From the NCBI RefSeq assembly GCF_022842045.1, contig NZ_JALHQI010000016.1, positions 1 to 47,520 on the forward strand: 47,520 nt of DNA. The letters are read 5' to 3'. The notes under the pieces are model-generated. The model ran no database searches. It had not been told where the DNA came from and saw only the letters and a list, made by a program, of their open reading frames with translations. The position numbers and the translations under genes are program-made. This DNA comes from Arenimonas sp. (lineage in GTDB: Bacteria; Pseudomonadota; Gammaproteobacteria; Xanthomonadales; Xanthomonadaceae). This document shows, piece after piece, positions 31,795-36,974 of this stretch (position 1 is the first letter of the stretch; each line of letters starts with the position of its first letter).

Positions 31795-32850
31795 TCAGAA
31801 GGCGGCGTCGAACGCGACTTCACCCTGGACCCCCACCTGGTAGGCCGATACCCGGCGTTCGAAGAAGTTCGTCAACTCCTGCACGTCCTGAAGCTCCATG
31901 AACGGGAAGGGGTTGCGGGCCCCGAAGTGCCGCGGCAGCCCGAGCTGGGCCAGGCGCTGGTCGGCGCAGTACTCCAGGTACTGGCGCATGTCGCGCGGCG
32001 ACAGCCCCGCCACGCCGCCCGACAGCACGTCGTCGGCGAACAGGCACTCCACGTCCACGGCCTCGCACAGCATCGTGACGATCTGCGCCTTGAGCTCGTC
32101 GTCGAACAGGTCTGGCTCCTCCTCGCGCACCGTACGGATGACCTCGAACGCGAACGCCATGTGCCCGCTTTCGTCGCGGAAAACCCAGTTCGTGCCACCC
32201 GCCAGGCCATGCAGCAGCCCGCGCGAGCGCAGGTAGTACACATAGGCAAACGCCCCGAAGAAGAACAGCCCCTCGATGCAGGCGGCAAAACAAACCAGGT
32301 TCATCAAAAACTGGCGGCGATGAGCGCGGGTGTCGAGCCGCTGCAGGGCCTGCACGCTGTCCATCCACTTGAAGCAGAACTCGGCCTTGCGGCGGATGGA
32401 CGGGATGTTCTCGATCGCCGCGAAGGCCTTCGCGCGCGCCTCGGGCTCGGGCAGGTAGGTGTCGAGCAGCGTGAGGTAGAACTGCACGTGCAGCGCCTCC
32501 TCGTAGAGCTGCCGCGACAGGTACATCCTGGCCTCGGGCGCATTGATGTGCTGGTAGAGGTTGAGCACGAGGTTGTTCGAGACGATGGAGTCGCCGGTGG
32601 CGAAGAACGCCACCAGCCGCTCGACCAGGTGCCGCTCGGCCGGCCCGAGCTTGGTCTTGAGGTCCTGGGTGTCGAGCGAGAAATCCACTTCCTCGACGGT
32701 CCAGGTGTTGCGGATGGCGTCGCGGTACATCTCGAAGAACTGCGGGTAACGCATGGGGCGCAGCGTCAGATCGAATCCTGGGTTCAGGAGTCTGGGAACT
32801 AGTGAAGAGGAACTGGGATCTAGTGAAGAGCGGGGGACGGACGCGGTCAT
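31795..32850 (-). CDS. nrdB: Class I ribonucleotide reductase, small subunit
   Basis: The 351-residue ferritin-like protein houses the di-iron/tyrosyl radical centre that starts catalysis in NrdA. Ligands and radical are visible: Asp in TGDSIVSNN (~87), Glu and His in [10 protein letters not shown] (118, 121) with Tyr 125 four residues after His as the radical site, Glu in CIEGLFFF (193), and Glu/His in DESGHMAF (227, 230). The family sequence proper begins at [10 protein letters not shown]. Residues 7-19 ([13 protein letters not shown]) are encoded by the left inverted repeat of the four-helix-bundle element, so the extreme N-terminus was rebuilt by insertion. The start at 32850 is the best-placed ATG; another lies ten codons upstream. 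Confidence 0.94.
32794..32831 (+). repeat. Left inverted repeat of the four-helix-bundle element
   Basis: GGGAACTAGTGAAGAGGAAC followed by TGGGATCTAGTGAAGAGC. CTAGTGAAGAG occurs twice here (also in a direct arrangement), and the region encodes the Ser-rich NrdB N-terminus on the other strand. Confidence 0.8.
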
Positions 32851-32917
32851 GGGTGATTTCCTGATGGGTGGGTGCTGCATGGATCGGGAGGATTGGGGGT
32901 GGCTGCGGAGAAACTGG

Positions 32918-33310
32918 ATGCACTACCGGAAAGCGGTTGTGTGGGTAAAAGCGGTGCAATTGGCGGAATTGAGCTGTCGACTTTCCAAGCGACTTCCCCC
33001 GGAGGAGCGGTTTGGCGTCAGGTCACAGATCACCCGTGCTGCCGTGTCTGTCCCGAGCAACGTCGCGGAGGGCTGGACAAGAGAGTCGCGACGGGAGAAA
33101 GCCCAGTTTCTGGCAATCGCCCATGGCTCGCTGGGTGAGCTCCACACCCAGCTGCTCCTCTGCGGCCGGCTAGGCTGGCTGCCCTCCAGTGAAACCAGGC
33201 AGGTGATCGAATTGGCCTTCGAAGTCGGTCGAGTGCTGACCACCCTGAGAAAGGCATTACGCTCCACCCCGGCCTCGCCAAGACTCCCTGCCGCGCCCAC
33301 TAGTTCCTAG
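32918..33310 (+). CDS. Four-helix bundle protein (S23/IVP, Avd-like family)
   Basis: The ATG at 32918 has GGAG eight bases upstream and gives MHYRKAVVWVKAVQLAELSCRL, the usual family start; an ATG at 32879 is an alternative. The 130-residue product has the conserved core FGVRSQITRAAVSVPSNVAEG, SRREKAQFLAIAHGSLGEL and a long final helix, as in the proteins encoded in 23S rRNA intervening sequences and the Avd accessory proteins of diversity-generating retroelements. They form pentamers that bind nucleic acid. The last four residues and stop (PTSS, TAG) come from the right inverted repeat. The gene is antisense to nrdA/nrdB. Confidence 0.9.
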   Translation: MHYRKAVVWVKAVQLAELSCRLSKRLPPEERFGVRSQITRAAVSVPSNVAEGWTRESRREKAQFLAIAHGSLGELHTQLLLCGRLGWLPSSETRQVIELAFEVGRVLTTLRKALRSTPASPRLPAAPTSS

Positions 33311-33329
33311 TTCCTCTCAACTATTTCCC
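33298..33329 (-). repeat. Right inverted repeat of the four-helix-bundle element
   Basis: CACTAGTTCCTAGTTCCTCT then CAACTATTTCCC; the complement of the left repeat with a few mismatches. It contains the stop codon of the four-helix-bundle gene and ends six bases before the nrdA stop codon. Confidence 0.8.
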
Positions 33330-33335
33330 AAGAAA

Positions 33336-35735
33336 TCACTGACATGCCTCGCAGGACTCCGGATTCTCGAGCGAGCAAGAAACCACCGCCGCCGCGTCAG
33401 GGCCATTGACCGTGGTCTTGGCGATGCGCGTGGCCGGCCGGGAGCGCAGGTAATACGTGGTCTTGATCCCCTGTTTCCAGGCATACATGTACATCGACGA
33501 CAGCGCGCCGATGTTCGGGGACTCCATGAACAGGTTCAGCGACTGGCTCTGGTCGATGAAGGCGCCGCGATCGGCGGCCATGTCGATCAGCGAGCGCATC
33601 GGCACTTCCCAGACGGTGCGGTAGACGGCGCGCAGTTCGGCGGGGATCTCGCTGATGCCCTGCACCGAGCCTTCCGCCAGCTTGACGCGGTCGCGCATCT
33701 CCGGCGTCCACTGGCCCAGCTGCTTGAGCTCGCGCACCAGGTGCCGGTTCACCTGCAGGAAGTCGCCCGACAGCGTCTCGCGCTTGAACAGGTTGCTGAC
33801 CTGGGGCTCGATGCACTCGTAGCAGCCGGCGATGGATGCGATGGTGGCGGTGGGCGCGATCGCCACCAGCAGGGAGTTGCGCAGGCCGTGCTCGCGGATG
33901 CGCTCGCGCAGGGCGTCCCAGCGCTCGGGCGACCCGGGCTGCACGCCCCAGGCGTCGAACTGCAGTTCGCCATGCGCGGCCCGGGTCTCCTCGAAGTTCG
34001 GGTGGCGGCCGCGTTCCTGCGCCAGTTCGCAGCTCGCGTCCAGCGCGTGGAAGTAGATGTCCTCGGCGATGCGCGCCGATAGCGCGCGCGCCTCGGGCGC
34101 GTCGAAGGGCAGGCGCAGCCGGAAGAACACGTCCTGCAGGCCCATCACGCCCAGGCCGACCGGGCGCCAGCGCAGGTTGCCGCGGCGGGCGGTCTCGATC
34201 GGGTAGAAGTTCAGGTCGATCACGCGGTCGAGCTGGCGCACGGCCAGGCGCACGGTCTCGGCGAGCTTGTCGAAATCGAAGTCGACGCGGTCATCTTCCT
34301 CCCGCAGGTGCTGGCCCAGGTTGATCGAGCCGAGGTTGCAGACGGCGGTCTCGTCGCCCGACGTCACCTCCAGGATCTCGGTGCACAGGTTCGACAGGTG
34401 GATCACGTTGCCGGGCCGCGCGGTCTGGTTGCTGGCGCGGTTGCACTTGTCCTTGAACGTCATCCAGCCGTTGCCGGTCTGGGCCAGGGTGCGCATCATC
34501 TTCCCGTACAGGTCGCGCGCGCGCACGGTCTTGACCGCGCGGCCGCTCGCCTCGGCCTGTTCGTAAGCCACGTCGAAGGCCTTGCCGAACAGGTCGGTGA
34601 ACTGCGGCACCGCCTTGGGGTCGAACAGCGACCACTCGCCGTCGGCCTCGACCCGGCGCATGAACAGGTCCGGGATCCAGTTCGCCAGGTTGAGGTTGTG
34701 CGTTCGCCGCGCCTCGTCGCCGGTGTTGTCGCGCAGCTCCAGGAACTCCTCGACGTCGGCGTGCCAGGGCTCGAGGTAGACGCAGGCGGCTCCCTTCCTC
34801 TTCCCGCCCTGGTTGACCGCTGCGACCGACGAATCCAGCGTCTTCAGCCACGGCACGATGCCGTTGGAGTGGCCGTTGGTGCTGCGGATCAGCGAACCGC
34901 GCGAACGCACGCGGGTGAACGAGACGCCGATGCCGCCGCTGAACTTGCTCAGCATCGCCACGTCCGCGTACTTGCGGTAGATCGATTCCAGCGTGTCGTC
35001 GGGGGAGTCGAGCAGGAAGCAGCTCGAGAGCTGTTCGTGCGTGGTGCCGGCGTTGAACAGCGTCGGCGAGCTGGGCAGGTAGTCCAGCGACGCCATGCGG
35101 CGGTAAAGCGCCAGCGCCTCGGGCACGTCCTGGCTCAGCGCGCAGGCGATGCGCAGGAAGAACTGCTGCGGGGTCTCGATGACGGTGCGCTGGGTCGGGT
35201 GCCGCAGCAGGTAGCGGTCGTACAGCGTGCGCAGGCCGAAGTAGTCGAAGCGGCGGTCGAGCGTGGCGTCGAGCGCGTCGTTGAGCTTGCGCGCGTTGGC
35301 CTGGACGAAACCCAGCAGCCGGTCGTTGATCAGCCCGACCTCGTGGCCGCGGGCGACGGACTGCGAGAAGGCGTGGATCTCCTGGCCCGCGACCTCCTTG
35401 GCGATGAGGTCCGCCAGCAGGCGCGCACCGAGGCGGCCATACTCGGGCTCTTCGGCGGTGAGCAGCGCGGCGGTGCGGATCGACAGTTCGTCCAGCTCGC
35501 GCGTGCTGGCGCCGTCGTACAGGCCGGAGATGGTGCGGGTGGCGACGCGCATCGGATCGATCGCGTACAGGTCGTCGCACTGGCGCGCCACGGCGCGGAC
35601 GATCTTGTTCAGGTCCACCGGCTCGCGCCGGCCGTTGCGCTTGGTGACGGTCATGCCCAGCGCGGTGGCGGGCGGGGTGAGGGCGAACTGCGGCGCGGCG
35701 GCGTCGGCGGGCGCGGCCAGGGTTTCGGTGTTCAT
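33336..35735 (-). CDS. nrdA: Class I ribonucleotide reductase, large (catalytic) subunit
   Basis: The 799-residue enzyme reduces ribonucleoside diphosphates to deoxy forms. An N-terminal ATP-cone (TVTKRNGRREPVDLNKIVRA, ~residues 33-125) senses ATP/dATP. The active site shows the redox Cys in QLSSCFLLD and AVCNLGSINL, and the radical Cys and Glu in NLCTEIL. A C-terminal CxxC (PESCEACQ) is the shuttle pair re-reduced by thioredoxin or glutaredoxin. MNTETLA at 35735 has GGAG upstream; the longer frame reads into the leader. The gene is transcribed from the promoter at 36230 through a cobalamin riboswitch. Confidence 0.96.
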   Translation of the reverse strand: MNTETLAAPADAAAPQFALTPPATALGMTVTKRNGRREPVDLNKIVRAVARQCDDLYAIDPMRVATRTISGLYDGASTRELDELSIRTAALLTAEEPEYGRLGARLLADLIAKEVAGQEIHAFSQSVARGHEVGLINDRLLGFVQANARKLNDALDATLDRRFDYFGLRTLYDRYLLRHPTQRTVIETPQQFFLRIACALSQDVPEALALYRRMASLDYLPSSPTLFNAGTTHEQLSSCFLLDSPDDTLESIYRKYADVAMLSKFSGGIGVSFTRVRSRGSLIRSTNGHSNGIVPWLKTLDSSVAAVNQGGKRKGAACVYLEPWHADVEEFLELRDNTGDEARRTHNLNLANWIPDLFMRRVEADGEWSLFDPKAVPQFTDLFGKAFDVAYEQAEASGRAVKTVRARDLYGKMMRTLAQTGNGWMTFKDKCNRASNQTARPGNVIHLSNLCTEILEVTSGDETAVCNLGSINLGQHLREEDDRVDFDFDKLAETVRLAVRQLDRVIDLNFYPIETARRGNLRWRPVGLGVMGLQDVFFRLRLPFDAPEARALSARIAEDIYFHALDASCELAQERGRHPNFEETRAAHGELQFDAWGVQPGSPERWDALRERIREHGLRNSLLVAIAPTATIASIAGCYECIEPQVSNLFKRETLSGDFLQVNRHLVRELKQLGQWTPEMRDRVKLAEGSVQGISEIPAELRAVYRTVWEVPMRSLIDMAADRGAFIDQSQSLNLFMESPNIGALSSMYMYAWKQGIKTTYYLRSRPATRIAKTTVNGPDAAAVVSCSLENPESCEACQ

Positions 35736-35967
35736 GGTGTTCTCCGGTGCGTGGCGCACGGTCGCCGTCCCTCCCTCGGGGGCGGCGCGCGGAGACGGGC
35801 GACGGCGACGCGCAACGGCGTCGTCGCGGCCATGCCCCCGCGGGCATGCGAAGTCAGAACGGAGGATGGAATGCGGGTGTCGCAGGGACCGAGACGCGGC
35901 GCCACGACACCGGCGCCGCCTCCCCCCGGAGACCTCTGGGCCGGTCACCGCGCGGTGTGCTTCGCGC
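35736..35967 (-). promoter_or_regulatory. nrdA leader between riboswitch and start codon
   Basis: No gene is visible in these 232 bases. Two perfect hairpins stand out: GCGGCGCC/GGCGCCGC (35896-35919) and CATGCCC/GGGCATG (35831-35848). A third, CCGCGCG/CGCGCGG, follows the aptamer directly (35948-35969). One may be the expression platform of the riboswitch. None has a T tract, so control of translation or Rho access is more likely than intrinsic termination. Confidence 0.4.
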
Positions 35968-36227
35968 GGCTGTCGGCAGGTCTTCGGGCTCGTGGACGTG
36001 AGAGCAGGAGCTAGTGAAGAGGAACTAGGAACTAGTGGTGATGCCGCCCTACTAGTTCCTAGTTCCTCTTCACTAGCTCCTGCTCCCGCCTACTAGCCGT
36101 CGCTTCCCAGGCCCAAGCCCAGTGCCAAAAACGGCGTTCGTTTCCACATACCGCTGCGGGGCAGCGCCGGAGTCACACCGGCTTCCCTATTAACCCTTGC
36201 GCGTTGCCGCGGTCGGGACCGACGGCC
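35968..36227 (-). promoter_or_regulatory. Cobalamin riboswitch upstream of nrdA, carrying an inserted palindrome
   Basis: On the minus strand the order of conserved blocks is that of the btuB-type aptamer: P1 5' arm GGCCGTCGG, GTTAATAGGGAAGCCGGTG, GACTCCGGCGCTGCCCCGCA, GCGGTATG, CACTGGG, CTGGGAAG, then after an unusually long variable arm the B12 box GAGCCCGAAGACCTGCC and the P1 3' arm CCGACAGCC. It should bind adenosyl- or methylcobalamin and shut nrdAB down when B12 is plentiful, as known for class I RNR genes in streptomycetes. About 84 of its 260 bases are a palindromic element (36002-36085). Confidence 0.93.
36002..36085. repeat. ORF-less palindromic element (35-bp perfect inverted repeat) inside the riboswitch
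   Basis: The arms at 36002-36036 and 36051-36085 are perfect complements over 35 bases; each contains GAAGAGGAACTAGGAACTAG. A 14-base spacer separates them. The shared core matches the terminal repeats of the four-helix-bundle element at 32794, so this looks like a gene-less (MITE-like) derivative. It extends the variable arm between the CTGGGAAG and GAGCCCGAAGACC blocks of the aptamer. Confidence 0.9.
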
Positions 36228-36229
36228 AC

Positions 36230-36258
36230 AACATATCGGGTGCCGACGGCCAGGTCAA
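36230..36258 (-). promoter_or_regulatory. Sigma-70 promoter of nrdAB
   Basis: TTGACC (36253-36258), a 17-base spacer and TATGTT (36230-36235) on the minus strand. The expected start near 36223 falls at the 5' edge of the riboswitch P1 stem, which supports both calls. Confidence 0.8.
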
Positions 36259-36272
36259 CGCAATATGTGGTG

Positions 36273-36974
36273 TCAGTGCGCAGCCAGCGGCCGGCACTGC
36301 AGGTTCGCCGGCAGGTCCCGCTGCCGCGCCAGCCAGGCCGCCAGTTTCGCCATGGGAATGGAATGGCGCGGATAGGCATGGCGGCCGCGAACGACGTAGG
36401 CGGCGCCGTGCTCGCTGGCGAAGAACCGCTGGTAGTCCTCCAGCGGCGTGCGTGAGGCGCGCGCCAGCGCGGCGTCGTGGATCGGTTCCTTCAGGTCCAT
36501 CGCGCCGCAGGGCAGCCACCACACCGGCCGCGCGTCCACCAGGACGAGGTGCAGGAAGCCGCTGCGATCCTCGGCGAGGAAGCCGTTGGCGTAGCGCGGC
36601 ATCACGTGCCGGTCGCCGTCCGACATCAGAAGCATCAGCCGCGCCTTGCCGTACTGCGGTGAGGCCATCTGCATCAGGCCGTAGTGGCTGGTGGTCGCGC
36701 CATGGATGCGTGGCGGTAGCGACGGCCCGTGCAGGGTGTCGAGCACGCGCGCGCGGAACCAGGTCGGCGGCGGATCCATGCACAGCACGTCGGGCGAACT
36801 GCACTCGGCGAACTGCGGCAGTGCGCCCTGTGCTTCGAGCTCGACGACGGCCAGGCGGTAGGTCGCGGTCGCCGGATCGATCTCCGGGTACACGGTGGGC
36901 GGTGCGGCGTGGGCAAGGCCGGCGGCGACCAACAGCGGGGCGAGGGCGTGGCGGATCAGCGAATGGCGGGGCAT
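36273..36974 (-). CDS. Secreted protein of unknown function
   Basis: The 233-residue product has GGAG upstream of its ATG at 36974 and a signal peptide (hydrophobic ~8-22, cleavage near AHAAPP). The mature part contains four or more Cys (AECSSPDVLCMD, LPCGAM, LQCRPL) suggesting disulfides, and His/Trp-rich motifs (HYGLMQM, RHAYPRHSIPM). No family recognised. Its stop lies 15 bases before the nrdAB promoter, on the same strand, so read-through into nrdA is possible. Confidence 0.75.
   Translation of the reverse strand: MPRHSLIRHALAPLLVAAGLAHAAPPTVYPEIDPATATYRLAVVELEAQGALPQFAECSSPDVLCMDPPPTWFRARVLDTLHGPSLPPRIHGATTSHYGLMQMASPQYGKARLMLLMSDGDRHVMPRYANGFLAEDRSGFLHLVLVDARPVWWLPCGAMDLKEPIHDAALARASRTPLEDYQRFFASEHGAAYVVRGRHAYPRHSIPMAKLAAWLARQRDLPANLQCRPLAAH

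Follow-up and report, generated by a model that had tools for sequence, protein, structure and literature searches.

An S23 gene between inverted heptad arms in the nrdAB operon of an Arenimonas genome, and a possible transposase-free partnership with dispersed hairpins

For decades, rRNA intervening sequences (IVSs) have been known to carry an unexplained open reading frame, that of the S23 proteins. In the 23S rRNA IVSs of Coxiella, Leptospira and Brucella (PMC4990558), a long stem of inverted repeats holds this frame in its loop. To our knowledge, the heptameric repeats of cyanobacteria and Xanthomonas have been described as without known function. In RAYT (TnpA-REP)/REPIN systems, a single gene is framed by a repeat whose other copies are scattered as inverted, hairpin-forming doublets, and the repeat type pairs with the gene type; features of REPINs are given in the accessible text of PMC3116915.

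According to excerpts of PMC4990558, the Coxiella S23p frame is preceded by tandem heptamers and the IVS is excised by RNase III; dispersal of IVS arms is not mentioned in these excerpts. TAACTGA heptamers are described in the accessible part of PMC4679880. The GGGNATC quadruplex repeats of Xanthomonas and Nostoc are of the same kind as those reported here, with 70 and 75 convergent inverted pairs in Xanthomonas; most of the Xanthomonas repeats occupied conserved positions in the two species compared, and as a rule they were not associated with mobile elements (PMC4692102, accessible text). This positional conservation is counted against spreading driven by S23. The terms "S23", "four helix" and "intervening" do not occur in that text, and the S23 partner is added here. 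Homology between PF05635 and Avd, a protein of diversity-generating retroelements (DGRs), has been noted before (excerpt of PMC10053308). Genes annotated 23S_rRNA_IVP were also reported in cas loci, often beside cas4 or cas6, which resembles the present case in that S23 lies among operon genes; repeats and their dispersal are not mentioned in the excerpts of that article (PMC3936711). The statement in the original prediction that such an arrangement was undescribed outside rRNA must accordingly be narrowed: S23 genes in cas loci had been reported, in those excerpts without the repeats. In the open-licence PMC literature, no paper was found that joins S23 to dispersed heptad hairpins.

The window, i.e. 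the whole analysed stretch of 47,520 nucleotides from Arenimonas sp. (contig NZ_JALHQI010000016.1), contained the following features:

31795..32850, minus strand, nrdB (ATG at 32850; named by NCBIfam)
32794..32831, plus strand, left arm of 7-bp units (GGAACTA GTGAAGA GGAACTG GGATCTA GTGAAGA)
32918..33310, plus strand, S23/IVP four-helix-bundle gene (130 aa from ATG 32918; PF05635)
33298..33330, minus strand, inverted right arm, which holds the S23 stop codon (reading frame end 33310)
33336..35741, minus strand, nrdA (start set at the methionine of MNTETLAAP, frame open to 35948; named by NCBIfam)
35958..36238, minus strand, cobalamin riboswitch upstream of nrdA (RF00174, 94.3 bits)
36004..36083, strand not assigned, gene-less hairpin of two inverted arms, between riboswitch model positions 151 and 152

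The PF05635 match at 32930-33241 scored 105.1-106.5 bits (curated cut-off 33.8) and the protein matched TIGR02436 (23S_rRNA_IVP) with 103.5 bits (cut-off 24). The first ATG of the reading frame is at 32753; ATG 32918 is the likelier start because the S23 proteins of relatives begin there. No other PF05635 match was found in the assembly. It is antisense to both neighbours. No rRNA sequence was matched in window positions 32500-36500, so the unit lies outside 23S rRNA. Protein family models yielded no transposase match and no Y1 (HUH) domain for the S23 protein, whose matches were PF05635 and a sub-threshold bAvd. Neither a sigma-70-like promoter nor a terminator was found at the unit, and no target duplication was recognised. 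A plus-strand four-helix-bundle gene between inverted repeats of about 32 bp, splitting nrdA from nrdB in antisense and lacking a transposase, had been predicted from this DNA, and this description held, as did its likeness to a 23S rRNA IVS set in a protein operon: the arms form an inverted-repeat stem, and an Azospirillum S23 gene lies in 23S rRNA with heptad-like arms. The window unit differs from rRNA IVSs in its place between protein genes and in the dispersal of its arms, and from RAYT/REPIN systems in that S23 has no Y1/HUH domain, the repeat is a 7-bp array and is statistically independent of Y1 transposases. As it has no transposase and is outside rRNA, it is neither a RAYT/REPIN system nor an rRNA IVS, and is filed here as a variant linking the two.

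The inverted arms (32793-32825 and 33298-33330) are 33 nt long, 85% complementary and 472 nt apart, and pair with each other in the predicted RNA fold of the unit (z -3.8). The left arm is translated on the minus strand as part of an N-terminal extension of NrdB (20 residues before LLNPG); at 32794-32850, an arm of the mobile type thus also encodes the N-terminus of NrdB. At another locus (L126), the heptads encode a 7-residue protein repeat (PLTPHSS).

Copies of the arm were searched in the window genome with the 16-mer GGAACTAGTGAAGAGG (up to 2 mismatches), which gave 52 matches versus 3 for the reversed control. The matches grouped into 25 clusters, of which 17 were convergent (plus, then minus) and none divergent. 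At the 16 sites inspected, short hairpins or hairpin parts made from the same arms were found, with a small loop; at its own locus, the S23 gene occupies the loop position of such a hairpin. The S23 gene is flanked by a repeat dispersed in its own genome, and the repeats are mostly inverted doublets that form hairpins, both as in RAYT/REPIN systems. In the original prediction, the same gene at the same place in all relatives, with no repeats elsewhere in the genome, would have marked an ordinary operon gene; the 52 matches are the opposite case. We read gene and arms together, with moderate confidence, as a partnership of gene and repeat that resembles RAYT/REPIN systems and works without a transposase.

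The gene-less hairpin in the cobalamin riboswitch (predicted fold -76.6 kcal/mol, z -15) sits in a peripheral loop, and the riboswitch keeps a score of 94 bits despite the insertion. The riboswitch was present in 9 of 9 relatives (G164, G103, G042, G147, G076, G180, G246, G128 and G196), and the hairpin of about 77 bp was absent from it in the same nine, which amounts to one apparent insertion with no intermediate. It appears to be the clearest sign of insertion. Rfam microRNA matches of the hairpin were far below cut-off and were taken as chance. One other explanation would make the unit an IVS-like RNA element: S23 would bind arm hairpins in transcripts and govern RNase III cleavage or stability of the surrounding mRNA or rRNA, and would spread no repeats, the dispersed hairpins having arisen by slippage and recombination and been kept as S23 regulatory sites. 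The position of S23 within operons and, at the Azospirillum locus, in 23S rRNA, where cleavage would be tolerable, the fold of the unit with paired arms, the high stability of the short hairpin and the published RNase III excision of the Coxiella IVS (PMC4990558, excerpts) would all fit. By itself, this explanation accounts neither for newly gained hairpins like the one in the riboswitch nor for dispersal as whole convergent pairs, and we regard it as possible but rather doubtful.

For comparison within the genus, nrdB was located in 13 of 27 genomes and the nrdA-nrdB junction was read in 10 relatives; the partial matches in G250 and G259 were left out. The empty junctions that the original prediction had proposed to look for were found in nine of the ten, which have no S23 there. 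Relatives without S23 have a short NrdB start (MTTAKLLDPG in G164, MQTSKLLDPG in G042). A possible arm remnant was seen in the nrdB start of G128. The junction of G164, the nearest relative, holds at the S23 site a different, imperfect inverted repeat of the TGATGAACAC type with about 25 nt per arm. G103 carries S23 at the same junction as the window genome, but with GGAAGTA heptads and a full hairpin on the right side; this arm sequence has 7 copies in G103 and occurs in 0 of 26 congeners. The S23 proteins of the window genome and G103 are 63% identical, and their nrdB DNA 86%. In G164, which lacks S23, 7 arm matches of the window-genome type remain. Four of its hairpin sites were read: two share flanks with window-genome sites that were read and two match none of those. 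The shared flanks indicate that part of the hairpin population predates the split of the two genomes.

Insertion sites in the Lysobacteraceae were compared using 141 PF05635 matches, of which 111 were fetched and, after removal of one fragment (L134), 110 loci analysed; L164-L169 were outside this analysis. Single linkage on flank similarity gave 16 site clusters, the genes of which were named via NCBIfam from one representative locus each. The largest cluster was accB-accC, with AT and TT heptads; the CY heptad cluster sits at carA-carB; nrdB-nrdA, including the window, was third-largest with 18 of the 110 loci from 13 genera. Among the smaller clusters, one is next to glyA and one next to ahcY. 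NrdB has an extended start at the arm position in all 18 loci of the nrdAB site. S23 and NrdB identities at this site were uncorrelated (rho 0.05, p 0.57; 153 non-independent pairs from 18 loci), which points to exchange, to more than one insertion or to highly uneven evolution. Together with the 63% S23 and 86% nrdB identities of the window genome and G103, this makes simple vertical descent of S23 at nrdAB appear doubtful. A freely mobile S23 unit was rejected, the 110 Lysobacteraceae loci falling into 16 clusters led by accBC, carAB and nrdAB; the earlier suggestion of a transmissible unit was thus not borne out for the gene. RAYT genes are likewise described as not freely mobile. What varies in location are the short hairpins made from the arms, and the mobile part appears to be mainly these, with the S23 gene at few operon sites.

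The link between heptads and S23 was assessed in 247 Lysobacteraceae genomes, 109 of which had PF05635 matches. Heptad patterns were derived from S23 arms and counted in all genomes; the registers counted overlap, and where no subtraction is stated the counts take in the S23 arms as well (median 2, maximum 8 matches per genome). The median was 114 matches in S23-positive and 0 in S23-negative genomes. At least 10 matches were present in 91/109 versus 21/138 genomes, and after subtraction of the own S23 loci in 86/109 versus 21/138 (p 1e-24); at least 50 matches, after the same subtraction, in 71/109 versus 9/138. Of the 26 mixed genera, 25 had a higher median for S23-positive than for S23-negative genomes and one had a tie, and the observed difference was reached in 0 of 5000 within-genus permutations. 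Exceptions, which count against the partnership, were 15 S23-negative genomes with at least 20 matches and 12 S23-positive genomes with fewer than 5 (13 after subtraction). Three genomes of one genus (G105, G223, G235; genus g45) have more than 170 heptad matches each and S23 was not found in them, perhaps after recent loss of the gene.

The association alone does not tell the direction of dependence between S23 and heptads. Another explanation is an indirect link, by which genomes where slippage-prone G-rich heptads build up would also be tolerant of S23, and streamlined genomes would lose the two together. Heptad copy number does vary, as is concluded from one locus (L018, about 870-1100) where a single hairpin holds a long GGAACTA/GGAAATA run, and the exceptions just listed go both ways. 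The higher S23-positive median in 25/26 mixed genera, the class-specific pairing reported below and the own-arm specificity of G103 speak against it, and such a link is judged improbable.

Y1_Tnp genes were found in the window genome (3) and in 170 of the 247 family genomes, so REP-associated Y1 or other transposases might have moved the hairpins, with S23 as a passenger that came to lie between two such hairpins. Frequent heptads were present in 73/85 S23-positive versus 13/85 S23-negative genomes with Y1, and in 18/24 versus 8/53 genomes without Y1, whereas Y1 had no effect within S23-positive (p 0.22) or S23-negative genomes (p 1.0). Heptads follow S23 in both Y1 classes alike, and Y1 (RAYT) transposase was rejected as the main driver. 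For the Y1 family, which was the one examined, and with heptad arms flanking S23 in many phyla, the passenger explanation has become very improbable.

On the S23 tree, four heptad classes at 84 classed loci required 3 changes, the minimum (shuffled mean 44.8); 26 of the 110 loci, including the window locus, had no clear class. Linkage of the arms to the gene, at sites that correspond to clades, is enough to explain this fit, which is not taken as independent proof. Genome-wide counts of the CY heptad (GGGACYS) would seem the better evidence of class specificity: after subtraction of own loci, at least 10 matches were found in 18/22 genomes with a CY-clade S23 versus 9/70 genomes with other fetched S23 loci (p 4e-9; 17 S23-positive genomes with no fetched locus were left out), and the value was reached in 0 of 10000 within-genus permutations (145 genomes, 19 genera). 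The 9/70 genomes that reach this count with no fetched CY S23 are counted against the partnership.

Flanks of S23 genes were analysed for periodicity and inverted arms. In the Lysobacteraceae, the best period was 7 in 92/110 and 14 in 11/110 flanks, versus 2/108 and 4/108 in control stretches 600 bp away; inverted arms scoring at least 12 were found in 99/110, versus 20% of shuffled pairings. A GTDB scan with 17 S23 proteins gave at least 593 stretches, of which the best 80 were analysed. Labels among these best 80 of at least 593 included Pseudomonadota, Bacteroidota, Planctomycetota, Acidobacteriota, Chloroflexota, Cyanobacteria, Clostridia, Patescibacteria, one archaeal bin and others. Period 7 was best in 45/80 and period 14 in 17/80 of them (control 600 bp away, 7/69 and 2/69), and inverted arms scoring at least 12 were present in 60/80, versus 2.1% of 1500 shuffled pairings. 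Two of these stretches (L259, L261) hold N runs, so that a lag-7 run of at least 14, seen in 37 of the best 80, is real in at most 35; as N runs favour period 3, they add nothing to the period-7/14 count. Three of the 80 (L191, L209, L226) have the same coordinates and equally long contigs as loci of the Lysobacteraceae set. Period 8 was best in 9 of the same 80 (L182-L261), so an octamer may be what is read in certain lineages of S23.

S23 was present in 30 plasmid records, from which 12 loci were read. Period 7 or 14 was found in 10/12 flanks versus 1/12 controls 600 bp away, and inverted arms scoring at least 12 in 11/12, versus 8.9% of shuffled pairings. On a Nostoc edaphicum plasmid (L172, 1186-1554), S23 lies antisense between nrdB and nrdA as in the window, in another phylum. 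Plasmids of Anabaena (L173) and Pseudanabaena (L181) carry S23 between cas6 and cas4 with heptad arrays; those of Pseudanabaena also occur in direct orientation. The Azospirillum gene in 23S rRNA (L180) was the one such case among 20 loci tested for rRNA. Inverted heptad arms around S23 are general. Arm dispersal outside the Lysobacteraceae is only partly shown: in 200-kb samples, own-arm sites numbered 2 in Bosea, 2 in Ramlibacter and 0 in both Sphingobacterium and a Rhizobiaceae genome, where arms of other loci averaged at most 0.08 sites per sample. These data also bear on the view that S23 is an ordinary operon gene beside simple-sequence or G-quadruplex regulatory repeats and has no functional link to them. 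Its constant place in 18 loci of 13 genera and the quadruplexes formed in vitro by Xanthomonas repeats (PMC4692102, accessible text) would agree with this, but inverted arms stand on both sides of most S23 loci versus few shuffled pairings, and heptad dispersal matches the gene's own class; of the explanations considered, it is given the least credence.

The S23 protein was predicted to fold with a pLDDT of 96. Its fold matched Xcc0516 (2GSC, five chains) and a Bacteroides S23 protein (2RLD). Weaker matches were to Avd, both by itself (4DWL) and within ribonucleoproteins of DGRs (8UB7, 8UB8). Xcc0516 has been described as a homopentameric toroid (PMC4990558, excerpts). S23 has the same fold as Avd, but scored 21.6 bits with NCBIfam DivGenRetAVD (cut-off 80), and the unit contains no reverse transcriptase. 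Protein family searches gave no catalytic domain in S23, which counts against the partnership.

The evidence for the architecture and for the S23-heptad association is strong. A causal role of S23 in the spread of hairpins is inferred from this association, from class specificity, from the riboswitch insertion and from analogy with RAYT/REPIN systems and Avd. In the partnership that we favour, the S23 protein, as a pentameric ring of the Avd fold, would recognise the hairpin of its own heptads, either in RNA or in single-stranded DNA, and aid the spread of such hairpins in trans. The chemistry would be provided by a host enzyme (reverse transcriptase, or replication and repair). The S23 copy itself would stay at few tolerated places (nrdB-nrdA, carA-carB, accB-accC or 23S rRNA) and be inherited or exchanged there. 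A wider proposal is put forward tentatively: S23 proteins could be trans-acting agents of transposase-free repeat propagation across bacteria, each lineage reading a 7-bp code of its own (with perhaps one heptad for every ring subunit) and spreading hairpins to intergenic, riboswitch and rRNA-loop sites via RNA or single-stranded DNA. A single phenomenon would then underlie rRNA IVSs, the heptanucleotide repeats of cyanobacteria and Xanthomonas and the occurrence of S23 in cas, nrd, car and acc operons.

The link between S23 and heptads gives the unexplained IVS protein and the repeats of no known function a partner each, and predicts that S23 recognises the hairpin of its own heptad class. 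If S23 does drive the spread, bacteria would propagate repeats without a known transposase. As S23 genes framed in this way occur in many bacterial groups, such a pairing of a protein with spreading hairpins may be widespread.
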